Source: a bacterium
GTDB lineage: Bacteria; Electryoneota; RPQS01; DYHQ01
NCBI GenBank assembly: GCA_030622545.1
Contig: JAUXGA010000002.1
Coordinates: 124,001-188,000, forward strand
Reading direction: 5' to 3'
Length of the DNA: 64,000 nt
A model generated the notes under the pieces. The model made no database searches, was not told where the DNA came from, and saw nothing but the letters and a program-made list of their open reading frames with translations. Positions 38,596 through 46,838 of the stretch are shown here, one piece after another (the stretch's first letter is position 1; each line of letters begins with the position of its first letter). Both the position numbers and the translations under genes were made by a program.

Positions 38596-39153
38596 ATGGT
38601 TCGGTTGCCTGCCTACATTTTGGCCGGTGGTGAAAGCCGACGCTATGGGCAGGACAAAACGCTTCTGTCGTGGGATGGCGAGCCTCTCATTTTGCGAACT
38701 GTGCGAACGGCGCAGAAGGCAGCATCTGATGTGAAAATCGTCGCCCGCGCTCGAGATAAATTTGAATTCGTGGGCGTCCCGGTGCTTCTGGATGTCGTCG
38801 AACGCGTGGGGCCGTTAGGAGGATTGCTGACGGCTTTAGAAGATTGTCCCGGCGAACGGTGTCTTATTCTGGCCAGCGATATGCCCTACTTGACGGAGGA
38901 ATGGCTGTGTAAACTCTGCGATATTCGGGAAGATACGCCTGTAATCTTCTCACAGTTCTCGAAAGGTGCCGAGCCGCTTTGCGCGGTCTATTCCAAGGCA
39001 ACACTGCCGTTTTGGTGGGAACAGTATCGCAGCAAAAACTTCAGCCTTCAAAAAGGAATTCAGCGATTGGGCGGTATGCAGGTCGAGTTTAAAGATGAAC
39101 TCGAATCGCATCCGCCTTTTTTCAATTTGAATGAACCGAATGCACTCCCATAG
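38596..39153 (+). CDS. mobA: Molybdenum cofactor guanylyltransferase
   Basis: 185 residues. It transfers GMP from GTP to Mo-molybdopterin to make the bis-MGD cofactor used by formate dehydrogenases. The nucleotidyltransferase signature ILAGGESRRYGQDKTLL is at residues 7-23, with ASDMPYLT (metal/GTP site) near 95. The length is normal. It starts 12 bases after the 51-residue gene and is followed by mobB, then the formate dehydrogenase operon, whose catalytic subunit needs bis-MGD. Confidence 0.93.
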   Translation: MVRLPAYILAGGESRRYGQDKTLLSWDGEPLILRTVRTAQKAASDVKIVARARDKFEFVGVPVLLDVVERVGPLGGLLTALEDCPGERCLILASDMPYLTEEWLCKLCDIREDTPVIFSQFSKGAEPLCAVYSKATLPFWWEQYRSKNFSLQKGIQRLGGMQVEFKDELESHPPFFNLNEPNALP

Positions 39154-39174: not shown

Positions 39175-39663
39175 TTGAAAAGATTGCACATCATTGGACG
39201 CCACAATTCAGGTAAGACGACGCTGATACTCCGGCTTATTCCAGCGCTTAAGGAGCGTGGTCTTCGCGTGGGTGTTTTAAAGCACGCGCCGGGTATTCAG
39301 AGCTTTGAAGGGGAGAGTGATTCTGCGCGTTTTGCAAAAGCAGGAGCGGATTTTACAGGGTTAGTGGGACGTCACGGCGGAGCGATTTACCTTCCTGAGT
39401 TGACGGAAATTTCTCAGTGGGAAAAGGTTGTCGAACATTTTTTCCCACAGGTGGATTTGCTGCTCGTAGAGGGCTATAAATCGGCGTCGGGAACCAAGAT
39501 CGAAGTCTGGCATGATGGCTTATCCGAACCACCGGTTAGCAAATCAGAGGAACCTCCGCTGTTTTTTGTCAGTAAGGTTTCTTTGATGCCGGAAATACAA
39601 TCCTTATCTCCAGATGACATAGATTCCATTGCTGAACAAATCCAGCGGTGGTGGAAGAGCTGA
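39175..39663 (+). CDS. mobB: Molybdopterin-guanine dinucleotide biosynthesis adaptor, MobB
   Basis: 162 residues from a TTG at 39175 (AGGCAGAG upstream). The Walker A motif GRHNSGKTT is at residues 7-15 and LLVEGYKSA supplies the later conserved segment of the MobB P-loop family. MobB binds GTP and helps MobA insert GMP into the cofactor. It is separated from mobA by 21 bases and ends at a strong hairpin terminator, so the mob unit and fdh unit are transcribed separately. Confidence 0.92.
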   Translation: MKRLHIIGRHNSGKTTLILRLIPALKERGLRVGVLKHAPGIQSFEGESDSARFAKAGADFTGLVGRHGGAIYLPELTEISQWEKVVEHFFPQVDLLLVEGYKSASGTKIEVWHDGLSEPPVSKSEEPPLFFVSKVSLMPEIQSLSPDDIDSIAEQIQRWWKS

Positions 39664-39858: not shown

Positions 39859-39960
39859 ATGGCCATTAAGGACTTAACAGGTTCTTTTTGCCATATTTGT
39901 GAGCGAATCCAAACTTCATATAAAATTATAACGGGAGTCGACTATGTCAACTGGGCGTAA
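39859..39960 (+). CDS. Possible 33-residue leader peptide of the fdh operon
   Basis: An ATG at 39859, with AAAGGACGG about nine bases before it, opens 33 codons: MAIKDLTGS, then FCHICERIQ, ending VDYVNWA. The stop overlaps the start of the next gene (39944) by 17 bases in another frame. It has a CxxC pair and lies between the promoter and the first large gene, where a regulatory or coupling upORF would be. It could also be chance; no homologue is known to me. Confidence 0.4.
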   Translation: MAIKDLTGSFCHICERIQTSYKIITGVDYVNWA

Positions 39961-40567
39961 GGTCGTTTTTATCCTTTTGATCGGATCGCTTTGGGGAATG
40001 CTCGAAATCCTGATTTGGGATGTCTGGCAGCTTCAAGGTTGGTCGCACGCGGCAATGGTGCTGGCTATTGGCGCACTCTTCTGTCTTGCCTTGGGGAGGC
40101 GAGTTCTGGATTTTGTCGGGAGTAGTATTGCCATTGCACTCGTAGCGTGTTTCTACAAATTTTTCAGTGTTGCTTTTTTTGCCTGCCAGATGTCGGGAGT
40201 CCTGGCTCTCGCCGCTTCCTTCGAAATTTTTGCACTGCTCTCGAAAAAGTATGTGGGGAGTGAGAATGGACTTAGACCTTTCCTGATCGGACTCCTGACC
40301 GTTTATCCTGCGTTTGTTGCGTTCACGATTCTCGTCGCTTTTGTGGGCTTGGAACCCAATTGGGCTGCAGCGGGTTGGTCACGCGTTCTGCCGTTCCTTG
40401 GATGGCCGGCGGTGGTGGCTTCGATAGGCGGTGCCCTTAGTTGTGTCGCGGGTTGGAGAGTGGGAGCGCGCCTTCATCACCCGGAATTGGTGGCTCGCTG
40501 GACGGTTGCAGTTCCTGCAGTTGTCGTGCTCTGGGGAGTCGCTGTTCTGCACGCCTGGGGCATCTAA
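39944..40567 (+). CDS. Unknown integral membrane protein, first large gene of the fdh operon
   Basis: 207 residues behind GGAG, with about six hydrophobic spans: VFILLIGSLWGMLEILIW, AAMVLAIGALFCLAL, SIAIALVACFYKFF, the CQMSGVLALAASFEIF span, PFLIGLLTVYPAFVAF and AVPAVVVLWGVAVL. I do not recognise a family. There are few histidines (three in the C-terminal third), so it is not an obvious cytochrome b subunit of formate dehydrogenase. Its position at the head of fdhD-fdhE-fdhA-fdhB suggests a role in membrane attachment, quinone contact, or transport of formate or metal; all are inference. It ends 19 bases before fdhD. Confidence 0.75.
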   Translation: MSTGRKVVFILLIGSLWGMLEILIWDVWQLQGWSHAAMVLAIGALFCLALGRRVLDFVGSSIAIALVACFYKFFSVAFFACQMSGVLALAASFEIFALLSKKYVGSENGLRPFLIGLLTVYPAFVAFTILVAFVGLEPNWAAAGWSRVLPFLGWPAVVASIGGALSCVAGWRVGARLHHPELVARWTVAVPAVVVLWGVAVLHAWGI

Positions 40568-40586: not shown

Positions 40587-41417
40587 GTGGCTCAATTACC
40601 CGTGGACAGCTCTCGAACATACCCCGTTCTTCGGATTTCCCCCAGCAGCGCGCGGGCGAAAACAGCCCCGGATAGTATCGCCGTAGAGTACACGCTTACC
40701 ATTCGTGTGAACGGTCAGGAAGTGGTGGGCATGCATTGCTCGCCGAGTGAACTGGCCGAACTCACAGCGGGATTTTTATACGGCGAAGCCATTCTTCAGG
40801 ATGCCCGCCAGCTTGATGAGCTGACCGTGGATGTGCCTCACGGCCAAGTGAATGTAATGCTTAAGGAAGATTTGGTACCGCTGACGGCGCTGGCGAAAAA
40901 AAGAATTCAAACCCTGACTTCCGCTTGCGGACGCGCCGTTACTTTCAGTCGCTCTTTGGATGCCGTATCGCTGTCGACCATGAAGGTCGGGGAGAAGCCG
41001 CTGATGTCCCCCAAACGTCTGGCCGCAATCATGAACGACTTCATGCGGGAATCCCGGCTATTAGACGGCACCGGCTGCATGCACCGGTGCGCGATTATCG
41101 ACGGCGAACAGATTGTCTATGCCGCTCAGGATATCGGACGGCATAATGCGATGGACAAAGTCATCGGCCATCTCGTGCTCACGGAAAAACTTCTCTCGCG
41201 TCCTTATATAGCGATTGCCACCGGTAGAATTTCATCGGACATTGCGCAGAGAGCGGCGATGGCTCAGATTCCGATGCTTGTTTCTCGAGCGGCGCCCACA
41301 TCGCGTGCGGTGGATTTGGCGGATTCCGTCGGTTTGACACTTATAGGTTTTGCACGGGGGGAGCGGATGAATGTGTACACGCATCCCCGAAGACTTATTG
41401 AAGATGATCTAACTTGA
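40587..41417 (+). CDS. fdhD: Formate dehydrogenase sulfurtransferase FdhD
   Basis: 276 residues from a GTG at 40587 without a clear ribosome site. FdhD moves sulfur from a cysteine desulfurase to the bis-MGD cofactor and is required for formate dehydrogenase activity. Family motifs are ELTAGFLYGEAI, the loop TSACGRAVTF and the segments TGCMHRCAII, QDIGRHNAMDKVIG and GRISSDIAQRA, the last being cofactor-binding residues. The loop that holds two cysteines in E. coli FdhD (CxxC) has only one here, with Arg-Ala-Val following, a variation I believe occurs in other anaerobes too. Confidence 0.92.
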   Translation: MAQLPVDSSRTYPVLRISPSSARAKTAPDSIAVEYTLTIRVNGQEVVGMHCSPSELAELTAGFLYGEAILQDARQLDELTVDVPHGQVNVMLKEDLVPLTALAKKRIQTLTSACGRAVTFSRSLDAVSLSTMKVGEKPLMSPKRLAAIMNDFMRESRLLDGTGCMHRCAIIDGEQIVYAAQDIGRHNAMDKVIGHLVLTEKLLSRPYIAIATGRISSDIAQRAAMAQIPMLVSRAAPTSRAVDLADSVGLTLIGFARGERMNVYTHPRRLIEDDLT

Positions 41418-41426
41418 GATATTAAT

Positions 41427-42320
41427 GTGAAAACTGATTGCTCGAATATCGCTGATGAGGGAAAAACATTCTCGCTGTCGGATTCTCTTGAAGAGCGGGA
41501 GGGAATTTCTCCGGAGTATCTTCGGTTGCAGGAAGCGCTTTCCGAATTTCGCAGCCTCGAAGTGAAATCAGACGCTTTAACACCGGAAGATTTTCCATCA
41601 TTAGCAACGGCGAATGAAGCTGTCCTGCAGAAGCGAAGTCTTATCACCGCAGCGAAGCTCGTTCCTCGTCCAAAGGCTCTTCGCGATAGTCTGAAGAGAT
41701 TGCTAAAGGCGCTGTCGGGGCATGCTCAGCTCCCCGATTCCTTTTCGAACTGGACTGAAGCATCCGCTGCAGCTATCGAGGATTGGTTCTGCGCTTCTGT
41801 GAAGAGAGATGACGCGCGGCTTTCGGAAATCGCGAAAACTTCGCAGCAGGATTCAGAGCTTCTCCTATGGGTTGGCCGCGAGTTGGCCAAGCCTTTTTTC
41901 CAGCGCTACAGTCGAACGATTCCCAAAGAGAGCTTGCAGAAGTGGAATCAGGGAGCGTGTCCGTGTTGCGGGGGACCGCCGAAGATGGCACGGTTGGAAA
42001 AAGAAACCGGACGGCGGTATTTGTGGTGCGAACTTTGTGCGATTGAGTGGGCTTTCAACCGCATTCAATGTCCATTCTGCGACAATAAGGATGCGAAACA
42101 GCTCGGCAATCTCGAACCCGAGGGATGGGAAATCTATCGCATTGCTGTCTGTGAACTGTGCAAAGGTTATCTTCGCACCATTGACGAACGCAAACTCCCG
42201 GAAGAGAGTGTCGCTGGTTTAGAAAAAGAAGAAATCGCGACGCTTCATTTGTGTTTTATTGCTGAACGTGAAGGTTATCATTTGCCGACTATCGCATTTC
42301 AAGATAAAAATCAGTCATAG
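41427..42320 (+). CDS. fdhE: Formate dehydrogenase accessory protein FdhE
   Basis: 297 residues from a GTG at 41427. The C-terminal half carries four CxxC pairs: CPCCGG, CELC, CPFC and CELC, as in E. coli FdhE, where they bind a rubredoxin-like iron. FdhE acts in maturation of respiratory, exported formate dehydrogenases before Tat transport. The N-terminal 150 residues are helical with no cysteine besides C5. Its presence agrees with the Tat signal on the catalytic subunit encoded next. Confidence 0.92.
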   Translation: MKTDCSNIADEGKTFSLSDSLEEREGISPEYLRLQEALSEFRSLEVKSDALTPEDFPSLATANEAVLQKRSLITAAKLVPRPKALRDSLKRLLKALSGHAQLPDSFSNWTEASAAAIEDWFCASVKRDDARLSEIAKTSQQDSELLLWVGRELAKPFFQRYSRTIPKESLQKWNQGACPCCGGPPKMARLEKETGRRYLWCELCAIEWAFNRIQCPFCDNKDAKQLGNLEPEGWEIYRIAVCELCKGYLRTIDERKLPEESVAGLEKEEIATLHLCFIAEREGYHLPTIAFQDKNQS

Positions 42321-42355: not shown

Positions 42356-45300
42356 ATGAAACTCACACGGCGAGAGTTTCTGATGTCAACGGGCGCCTTG
42401 GCGATGGGAGGGGTTTTGATCAAGATTGGTCTGGACCTCAGTCCTTCGGTGGCCTTTGCGGAAGCTCTCAAAACACGGTATTCGGAGGAAAGCACCACAA
42501 TCTGCCCCTATTGCGGAGTCGGTTGTGGTTTAATTGTTTCCTCGATTAACCGTAAAGTCATCAATGTCGAAGGTGATCCCGACCATCCCATCAACGAAGG
42601 GGCGCTCTGCTGCAAGGGGCAGTCCCTCTATCAGGTTGCCAACAGCGACCGACGGCTTGACAAGGTACTCTATCGCGCGCCTATGAGTACCGAGTGGGAA
42701 GAAAAATCCTGGGAGTGGGCAATTGACCGCATCGCGATGAATATCAAGAAAACGCGCGACGCTCACTTCATCAAGAAAGACAAAAAAGGGCGTGTCGTCA
42801 ATCGCGTCGAAGCCATTGCCGGTCTCGGCGGCGCGGCACTCGATAACGAGGAATGCTACCTCTACGGCAAACTTGCTCGCGCGATGGGCGTGGTTTACCT
42901 CGAGCATCAGGCTCGGATATGACACTCGGCCACCGTCGCCGGTCTGGCGACATCTTTCGGCCGAGGCGCGATGACCAATCATTGGATTGACATCGGCAAC
43001 TCAGATTGTATCATGATTATCGGCTCCAATGCCGCTGAAAATCACCCGCTGTCGTTCAAATGGGTGATGAGAGCGATGGATAAGGGAGCCAAACTCATCC
43101 ACGTAGATCCCCGCTTCACTCGCACATCTTCCAAAGCAAATATCTACGCTCCCCTGCGTTCCGGCTCCGACATCGCGTTCATCGGCGCACTCATTCGTTA
43201 CATTATCGAGAACAAACTCTACCATGAAGAGTACGTTCGCGAGTACACGGATGGCGCGTTCCTTGTCGACTCGAAATTCGACTTCAACGATGGTCTATTC
43301 TCTGGCTTTGTTGCCGCCAAACCTACCTATGATAAGAAAAAAGGCGGCTGGAATTACCAGATGGACGCTGAGGGAAATCCGAAACTGGATAAATCACTGC
43401 AGGATCCGCGTTGCGTGTTGCAGCTCATGAAGAAGCATTACGCGCAGTACACGCCGGAGAAGATGAGCGAAGTCACCGGTATGCCGAAGGAGAAATTCCT
43501 TGAGATTGCCAAGTGTTTTTGTGCCACCGGCAAAGCTGGCAAAGCCGCTACCATTATGTATGCGATGGGCACGACCCAACATACCTATGGCAGTCAGAAT
43601 GTGCGTAGCTATGCGGTGCTTCAGTTGCTGCTTGGGAATATCGGTGTAGCCGGAGGCGGCATCAACGCTTTGCGCGGCGAATCGAATGTGCAGGGTTCAA
43701 CCGACTACGCGCTTCTCTTTCACATTCTCCCCGGCTACTTGAAAACACCGCGGGCGAATAATGCATCGCTGAAGGCGTATCACGACAAATGGACGCCAAA
43801 AGCGATGGGCGGCGACAAGAGCGCCAACTGGTGGCAGCACACCCCGAAGTATATGGTGAGCTTCCTGAAAGCTTACTGGGGAGACCATGCCACGAAAGCC
43901 AACGAGTTCGACTATCATTACCTGCCGAAGCTCGACGAGAACACCAACTACTCGCACATTGCGCTTTTCGAAGCGATGCACGAGGGTGATGTAAAGGGTC
44001 TTTTCCTGATGGGTCAGAATCCAGCCGTGGGCGGACCGAATGCCCGTAAAGAGCGCAAGGCTCTCGAGGAGCTGGACTGGATGGTCGCAGCGGACCTTTG
44101 GATGACCGATACGATGGAGTTTTGGAAGAGACCGGAAGCGGATCCGAAGAAGATTAAGACTGAAGTCTTCGCGCTTCCCGCGGCAGGTTCCGTCGAAAAG
44201 GAAGGTTCCATTGTGAACTCGGGTCGCTGGATGCAGTGGCGTTACAAGGCCGCTGAGCCGCCGGGTGTGGCGCGTACCGACTCGTGGATGCTCGGCCAGA
44301 TTTTTACAAAGCTTCGGGAAGAGTATAAAAAAGGCGGCGTGTTCCCGGATCCCATTGTCAATCTTTCATGGAACTACGGCGGTGGAGAGGAACCGGATGT
44401 TCATCTTGTTGCTAAGGAATGCAACGGCTATGCGATGGATAGTTACACGCACAAAGATACGGTTGTGAAAAAAGGTCAGCAAATTCCATCCTTTGCATGG
44501 CTTAAGGATGACGGCACGACTTGCAGCGGAAACTGGCTCTATTGCGGCAGCTACACCGAAAAAGGCAACATGGCAGCCCGGCGTGTGAGAGAAGATGCGC
44601 CGAACAACATCGGGCTCTTTCCGCAGTGGGCATGGTGCTGGCCGGTCAATCGCCGGATTATCTACAACCGCGCGTCAGTTGATTTGACAGGCAAACCTTG
44701 GAATTCCGAGAAGCCGGTCGTTCGCTGGGATGCGGGGAAGAAGAAATGGATCGGCGATGTGCCCGACGGCGGTTGGGCTCCGGGAACGAAGTTCGCGTTT
44801 ATTATGCTTCCTTCCGGTCATGCCCGGCTCTTCGGGGATCCGCTTAAGGATGGTCCGTTCCCGACGCATTATGAGCCAGTCGAAAGTCCGGTACGAAACG
44901 CACTCTATTCTCAGCAGACTAACCCCGTTATCAAGATGTGGGCCGGAGCGATGGACGAATTGGGAGATGCGAGTAAGTTCCCCATCATCGGCACAACCTA
45001 TCGTGTAGTCGAACACTGGCAGGCGGGTCAGATGACACGAAATCTGACCTGGCTTTCGGAGTTGATGCCGGATATGTTCATCGAGCTGTCTCACGAATTA
45101 GCGGATGAAAAAGGCATCAAGAATGGAGACAGGGTGCGTGTGACATCTGCGCGCGGCGGCATCTCGGCATACGCTGTGGTGACGCACCGCTTCAAACCCT
45201 TCAAGATGAACGGGCACGTTAAGCACCAGATAGGCATACCTTGGCATTGGGGATATTCCGGAATTGCCGTGGGAGACAGTGCCAATATTCTAACCCCGCA

Positions 45301-45370
45301 TGTCGGTGACGCCAATACCATGATCCCCGAGTACAAGGCGTTCCTGTGCGACGTTGAGAAGGAGGCGTAA
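42356..45370 (+). CDS. fdhA: Formate dehydrogenase catalytic subunit, selenocysteine-containing, Tat-exported
   Basis: 1004 residues read through an in-frame TGA at 42920-42922, which is selenocysteine 189 in the context HQARI-U-HSATVAGLA, the invariant active-site context of Sec formate dehydrogenases. A plain ORF caller splits it into 42350-42922 and 42971-45370. The ATG at 42356 follows AGAGAGG. The Tat signal LTRREFLMSTGALAMGG opens the protein, then the [4Fe-4S] site CPYCGVGCGLI with CCKG, and the bis-MGD domains to a C-terminal molydopterin-binding barrel (PDMFIELSHELADEKGI, NGDRVRVTS). It oxidises formate to CO2 at the outer face of the inner membrane. Length matches FdnG/FdhA. It is followed by fdhB after one base. 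Confidence 0.97.
42923..42965 (+). promoter_or_regulatory. Bacterial SECIS element
   Basis: Directly after the TGA, CTCGGCC (42925-42931) pairs with GGCCGAG (42959-42965), and GTCGCC (42935-42940) pairs with GGCGAC (42946-42951), leaving the loop GGTCT. The GGUCU apical loop is the same as that of the E. coli fdhF SECIS bound by SelB. Confidence 0.93.
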
Positions 45371-45371
45371 G

Positions 45372-46199
45372 ATGGCTGATAATGCTTTCCTTTATGACGG
45401 AAGTCTTTGCATCGCCTGTCGCAGTTGTCAGGTGGCTTGTAAACAATGGAATTATCTCCCCGGCGAAAAAACGAAATTCTTTGCCAAAGCAGGTGGTTAT
45501 CAGAATCCGTCTGATCTGTCGTCTATCACCTGGTGCATCGTCAGATTCTACGAGATTATGAAAGATGACGAGGTGGAATGGCTCTTCCGGCGTAACCACT
45601 GTTTCCATTGCACGGACGCAGCGTGCATTAAGGCGTGCCCGGTGGAACCGGTGAAGGCGATGACGCGTCATCCGAAATTCGGTACTGTCTTCGTCAATCA
45701 AGATCTCTGCATTGCCTGTGGAGCCTGTGAAGAGTACTGTCCGTTCGGTGTTCCTCATGTTGATGAGAATTTGGTGAAAGCGCGCAAATGCACCGCCTGT
45801 TATGATCGTGTAGCGAACGGTTTGCTTCCTGCGTGTGCGACAACGTGTCCTACCAAGGCGATTCGGTATGGAACGATGGATGAAATTCTGGCGATTGCCT
45901 CCGCCCGGACAAAGGTGTTGCAGAAAGAAGGATTCAAACCTGTCATGTACGGGAAGAAGCAGTTAGGCGGCTTGCATTCAATGCTGCTGCTTCCGGAGAA
46001 ACTTGATTACTACACGGATCTGCCTGCGAATCCGAAGATTTCGAGAGATCTGGGTTCGCTCGAGCAGCCAACAAAAGCGATGCCGTCTATGTCATTGGGC
46101 GTTGCATCACTGGGGCTGGCGGTCGTTGCGATTGAGAAACTACGTCAGCGGCGCAACAGCCTTATGACGAAGAAACTGGAAGAGGTTGAGAGCGACTAA
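45372..46199 (+). CDS. fdhB: Formate dehydrogenase iron-sulfur subunit
   Basis: 275 residues from the ATG at 45372 behind GGAGG at 45361. Four [4Fe-4S] motifs lie in order: CIACRSCQVACK, CFHCTDAACIKACP, CIACGACEEYCP and CTACYDR with CATTCP. It carries electrons from the selenium/molybdenum subunit to a membrane or soluble acceptor. Near the C-terminus about 17 hydrophobic residues (MSLGVASLGLAVVAIEKL) could anchor it in the membrane, as in FdnH, but the stretch is short. No gamma subunit (cytochrome b) follows; the operon ends at a terminator 25 bases on. Confidence 0.95.
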   Translation: MADNAFLYDGSLCIACRSCQVACKQWNYLPGEKTKFFAKAGGYQNPSDLSSITWCIVRFYEIMKDDEVEWLFRRNHCFHCTDAACIKACPVEPVKAMTRHPKFGTVFVNQDLCIACGACEEYCPFGVPHVDENLVKARKCTACYDRVANGLLPACATTCPTKAIRYGTMDEILAIASARTKVLQKEGFKPVMYGKKQLGGLHSMLLLPEKLDYYTDLPANPKISRDLGSLEQPTKAMPSMSLGVASLGLAVVAIEKLRQRRNSLMTKKLEEVESD

Positions 46200-46277: not shown

Positions 46278-46838
46278 TTAGGTAACCAAAACCTGTTCAG
46301 GCGCTGTTGGTTTGATAGTTACTTCAGGCTCCTCGACACACAGGAATTTTCGGCAGAGGTCATCGAGGACTTTCTGGCGGGCTTCAATCAGTTTCGGCTG
46401 ATTCTCAATCCGTTCGGCTGTACGGTGGTAGATCCATTCATAAGCCAAAATCTGTTCGGGCTCAGGTGGGAAACAAAGGAGTTCGCTTGTGATTTTAGAT
46501 AGTGAGGAAAAGGCAAAATCTTTCGACAGTCGAATGACGAGCTCCCATTCTGTCAATGAGTCCGCCGTCAAATCAAAACGTCCAGCCAGTTGGAAGCAGC
46601 GTTTTTCGATGAGCATCGACTGCAGAATGATGAAGTTTTGAATGAAGAGACGCTCGGGATTAAAAGGTTCAGCGGGAGTAGCCTCGCGTTTTGTGATTCG
46701 GAATAAACCGTTTTCGCTTTGACCTTCGACTTGCTGCACGCCAGCGTAGATAACAGACTGGCGGACGTCGCGTGCGGCTTGCGCAAGAGATGCATGGAGC
46801 TTGTGCCGCTTTATAAACTTGGCGGTGACATGCCACAT
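46278..46838 (-). CDS. Hypothetical protein, possibly the 3' part of a frameshifted gene
   Basis: 186 codons with no recognisable domain. The composition is coding-like (helical, rich in Gln, Leu, Glu, Phe). The start is doubtful: the ATG at 46838 has no ribosome site, and the same frame stays open and protein-like up to a TGA at 46926 without a start codon. Another frame between 46981 and about 46905 also reads like a coiled coil (QQRELATK, RERLIDEINRR) and follows directly on the aminotransferase stop. A frameshift near 46905-46925 in an older, longer gene would explain both. No function can be given. Confidence 0.4.
   Translation of the reverse strand: MWHVTAKFIKRHKLHASLAQAARDVRQSVIYAGVQQVEGQSENGLFRITKREATPAEPFNPERLFIQNFIILQSMLIEKRCFQLAGRFDLTADSLTEWELVIRLSKDFAFSSLSKITSELLCFPPEPEQILAYEWIYHRTAERIENQPKLIEARQKVLDDLCRKFLCVEEPEVTIKPTAPEQVLVT

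Follow-up and report, generated by a model that had tools for sequence, protein, structure and literature searches.

Gene arrangement around fdhA

The window, by which is meant the whole stretch of 64,000 nucleotides that was analysed, harbours the genes of a formate dehydrogenase (FDH) together with genes for its maturation, all located on the same (plus) strand. Upstream of fdhA are found a gene for a mobA-like guanylyltransferase (38596–39153; PF12804, with MobA as best NCBIfam match, below cut-off) and mobB (39175–39663; PF03205, TIGR00176 above cut-off), both connected to the Mo/W cofactor, followed by fdhD, encoding a sulfurtransferase for FDH maturation (40587–41417; PF02634 226 bits, TIGR00129 180 bits, above cut-off), and a gene for an fdhE-like maturation protein (41427–42320; PF24859 above cut-off, TIGR01562 59 bits and below cut-off). 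Downstream of fdhA lies fdhB, encoding an iron-sulfur beta subunit (45372–46199; Fer4_11, TIGR01582 197 bits, below the cut-off of 335), with its ATG behind the sequence AAGGAGG. FdhB contains a weak hydrophobic stretch near the C-terminus, and the comparison of 85 loci revealed a relative in 82.

Two further genes are situated in this region. Between mobB and fdhD (39944–40567) a protein of 207 aa is encoded, probably a membrane protein and of no known family, for which a match was found only in L024 among the loci compared. Behind fdhB, on the minus strand (46278–46838), lies a gene whose product of 186 aa matches no NCBIfam family, and a counterpart (45%) is likewise located behind fdhB in a genome of the same family (L020, L099).

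The gene fdhA itself (42356–45370, plus strand) consists of an open frame running from ATG at 42356 to TAA at 45368–45370, the sole interruption being a TGA at 42920–42922. This single in-frame UGA joins 42356–42919 and 42923–45370 into one alpha subunit of 1004 aa, with the UGA codon at residue 189. The earlier note had regarded the frames 42356–42922 and 42971–45370 as one gene, and this was confirmed since both TIGR01553 and the FdhA of Desulfovibrio vulgaris, an Sec enzyme of solved structure, cover the two flanks continuously. The match to TIGR01553 (formate dehydrogenase-N alpha) is a single one across residues 3–1002 with 1380.4 bits against a cut-off of 814.2, and the alignment with D. 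vulgaris FdhA (1203 bits over residues 1–1002) places the Sec of that enzyme exactly on residue 189. The protein contains the metal ligand of the FDH-N type (U189-H190), an N-terminal four-Cys 4Fe-4S motif (CPYCGVGC from residue 50, with Cys85/86; PF04879 65 bits) and a molybdopterin domain (PF00384) spanning residues 112–649, and it starts with a Tat-type leader, TRREFLM. The product of fdhA is thus an alpha subunit of the FDH-N type (TIGR01553), with a predicted catalytic role.

A cytochrome b gamma subunit (TIGR01583), by which a three-subunit membrane complex of the FDH-N kind would be recognised, gave no match in the 96% complete genome, while the E. coli control was positive. With a Tat-type leader on FdhA and no gamma subunit found in the genome, the genes fit a two-subunit FdhAB as in Desulfovibrio, with predicted export.

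The UGA codon and the Sec decoding machinery

To describe the codon at the Sec site an alignment-based table was used that comprises 80 database loci and the window. Opposite the UGA at 42920–42922, 68 other loci have TGA and 12 have TGC or TGT, giving TGA in 69, TGC in 7 and TGT in 5 of the 81 sequences and nothing else. The codon directly before it encodes Ile in every one of the 69 Sec genes but in only one of the 12 Cys genes, and since the window has Ile here its resemblance to the Sec type does not end with the UGA. The surrounding sequence RI-U-HSATVAGLA had been called invariant, which proved too strict; among the homologues S or A can stand in place of the G, the first A gives way to S, P or T, and the corresponding E. 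coli sequence is RV-U-HGP.

The genome to which the window belongs (2.66 Mb in 20 contigs, 96% complete) was searched for the genes needed to decode Sec, which the earlier note had expected elsewhere in the genome and whose absence would have spoken against its reading. All four were found, so that the machinery is complete: selA (C14:95164–96258, 447.6 bits), selB on the same contig (642 aa; TIGR00475 376 bits with a cut-off of 242), selC, the tRNA-Sec with a UCA anticodon (C14:119155–119249, 61.3 bits), and selD (C12:39058–39981, corresponding to L014:1414–2523, 364.8 bits). The gene selD also contains an in-frame UGA, located in the sequence HCAGUAS and followed by a two-part hairpin whose GGU triloop comes 21 nt after the UGA. 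As the selD hairpin also has a GGU loop, one SelB could serve both fdhA and selD.

These data bear on the possibility that a Cys codon (TGC or TGT) has become TGA by mutation or by a sequencing error, leaving a broken gene or an assembly artefact. The nearest relative, of the same family and with 77% identity, does have TGC at this site, and the assembly to which the window belongs is a draft in 20 contigs. The explanation is nevertheless very improbable, considering that 68 other loci share the TGA at this codon, that the preceding codon is of the Sec type, that the remaining frame is open and conserved across 1004 aa and that the genome combines a complete Sec machinery with a second UGA gene, selD. 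Even less credit can be given to the UGA being a true stop between two separate proteins of 188 and about 800 aa. Both parts do have start codons as mechanical open reading frames, but translation ending here would sever the molybdopterin domain exactly where the metal ligand sits, and the frame remains open and conserved through 42923–42970, upstream of the next ATG (HSATVAGLATSFGRGA).

The hairpin downstream of the UGA

When analysing the sequence following the UGA a putative SECIS hairpin was identified at 42925–42965 on the plus strand, with a lower helix (42925–42931 pairing with 42959–42965) and an upper helix (42935–42940 pairing with 42946–42951) that carries the apical loop GGUCU (42941–42945), the predicted contact of SelB. 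The loop begins 19 nt after the UGA, a spacing as in fdhF and fdnG of E. coli, and the proposal of a two-part hairpin with a GGUCU loop resembling that of E. coli fdhF was borne out, the loop and its distance from the UGA being those of fdhF. Published bSECIS criteria ask for a loop of 3–9 nt with G in the first two positions, an upper stem of 4–16 bp, 16–37 nt between UGA and loop and a folding energy of at most -7.5 kcal/mol (PMC13188914). With a loop of 5 nt (GGUCU), a stem of 6 bp, a spacing of 18 nt and -23.1 kcal/mol the hairpin falls inside all these limits.

The folding energy was considered as proof of a SECIS element and rejected, being unremarkable against dinucleotide shuffles (z = -1.17); 4.3% of controls with random synonymous codons were equal or better, and along fdhA the energy lies in the top 0.3% of positions. 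The covariation was used instead. It was studied in 29 Sec genes with loops of the GGU/AGU type, where 82% of the cells of the hairpin are paired compared to 29–60% in slid versions, and where 28 two-sided changes were observed against 9.8 expected from shuffles. The pair 18–30 (numbered from the U of the UGA) is formed in 29 of 29 genes, as C-G, U-A, G-C, G-U or U-G, and none of 100,000 permutations was as good, a figure by which the covariation is somewhat overstated owing to the kinship among the sequences. Positions 18 and 30 lie opposite one another in the upper stem and are the third bases of a Val and an Ala codon, and constraint on the protein cannot account for their covariation. In its middle part the lower helix is poorly conserved across the set, 21 of 27 distinct rows lacking pair 9–43. 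As evidence for the hairpin, the covariation in these alignments is stronger than the folding energy.

The loop sequence was also rejected as proof of Sec, as the Cys homologues L020 and L032 carry GGUCU as well. This is explained by GGTCT being located in the codons of Ala-Gly-Leu, so that the loop is partly forced.

Taken as one, the machinery genes, the pattern of exclusively TGA or Cys codons among the homologues and the covarying hairpin support the earlier note in its claim of selenocysteine in a formate dehydrogenase. With the whole decoding machinery in the genome and a signal hairpin right after the codon, the UGA at 42920 is very probably read as Sec. Decoding to a different amino acid, either through reassignment to Trp or through near-cognate readthrough, in which the hairpin plays no part, has nothing in its favour except the open frame and is highly implausible given Cys or Sec at the site in all homologues, a tRNA-Sec with UCA in the genome and covarying third positions in the upper stem.

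The locus is therefore almost certainly that of a selenocysteine-containing formate dehydrogenase of the FDH-N / Desulfovibrio FdhAB family, predicted from its sequence to be exported and to depend on Mo or W. In such an enzyme SelB carrying Sec-tRNA-Sec would bind the hairpin, which starts 2 nt past the UGA, and the ribosome would insert Sec, the selenium of which would ligate the presumed active-site metal. FdhB would then pass the electrons on, and MobA/MobB together with FdhD/FdhE, encoded just upstream, would build and insert the cofactor; the direction of catalysis is a part of this explanation that we infer.

Close relatives and a probable change from Sec to Cys

Matching positions and scores of the SelB hits suggest that L020 and L032 correspond to G025 and G031 of the phylum. 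A genome of the same family as the window (G025, probably the genome of L020) contains SelB but has an FdhA with Cys, 77% identical to that of the window, the codon at the Sec site being TGC (L020:627 and L099). Its fdhA retains a SECIS-like hairpin (-22.2 kcal/mol), and in the FDH tree its FdhA groups with the window with full support, the deeper forks being weak. This suggests that the gene probably represents a recent change from Sec to Cys with a relic SECIS, a pattern that Zhang et al. 2006 (PMC1794560) have reported for FdhA. Among 39 genomes of the window's phylum this FdhA was found in five, three of which have UGA, and SelB in 35, making Sec decoding common in the phylum. In the literature searched no paper was found on selenocysteine in this phylum.

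FdhA is present in 67 of 75 Sec-using bacteria (Zhang et al., PMC1794560). No bacterial selenoprotein is more widespread, so that an additional case makes little difference; the fdhA described here is a further example of a well-known selenoprotein, sound but ordinary. The FdhA of the window and that of G025, being 77% identical, do offer a natural Sec/Cys pair in which the contribution of Sec to the enzyme could be tested.

Other SECIS registers and SelB paralogues

Among the homologues a second SECIS register was observed in 40 Sec genes (L027, L029, L030, L035 and 36 other loci), in which a stem of 8 bp that hardly varies in sequence carries a GGC triloop, GCGGCUCU-GGC-AGAGUCGU. The stem-loop is situated ~16–34 nt downstream of the TGA and its loop 24 nt after it, 5 nt farther away than in the window. 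Some genomes encode two or three SelBs, which are found in separate deep and mostly well-supported clades. This is the case in the window's phylum for G010, G011, G013, G014, G015, G037 and G038, and for G056, G058, G060, G073, G075 and G077, the genomes of loci titled Deltaproteobacteria, Desulfobacteraceae, Desulfofervidaceae, etc. The paralogues G056b and G058b are without the usual switch I sequence. That the register follows the SelB clade was tried as an explanation and rejected, both registers occurring with single SelBs inside one large clade. It is conceivable, though rather unlikely, that one Sec codon is served in this gene family by two alternative SECIS registers, the GGU/AGU pentaloop 19 nt and the GGC triloop 24 nt after the UGA, with the deep SelB paralogues of some members of the window's phylum and of Desulfobacterota specialised by SECIS type. 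The literature searched contained no paper on multiple SelBs or alternative SECIS registers.

Comparison with known formate dehydrogenases

Among the closest known systems is the W-FdhAB of D. vulgaris (PDB 6SDR, 8CM4, 9QM0), whose alpha subunit can be aligned from end to end, including the Sec residue and the N-terminal leader. It is a two-subunit enzyme (PMC9774666), matching the gene order fdhA-fdhB of the window. The differences are that the window comes from another phylum and that its FdhB has the weak C-terminal hydrophobic stretch.

FdnG of E. coli (FDH-N, PDB 1KQF) belongs to the same family as FdhA of the window (974 bits), and fdnG likewise contains Sec, with an AGUCU loop 19 nt after the UGA and a similar helix layout (from NC_000913). 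FDH-N of E. coli, however, includes FdnI, a gamma subunit of the cytochrome b type, and none was found in the genome of the window. The enzyme encoded by fdhF of E. coli is a distant relation of FdhA of the window (188.6 bits). In the SECIS the GGUCU sequence and the position of the first loop base, 19 nt after the UGA, are identical (from NC_000913). The lower helix differs in sequence between the two, and the stem of the window is the more stable one (-23.1 compared to -14.2 kcal/mol).
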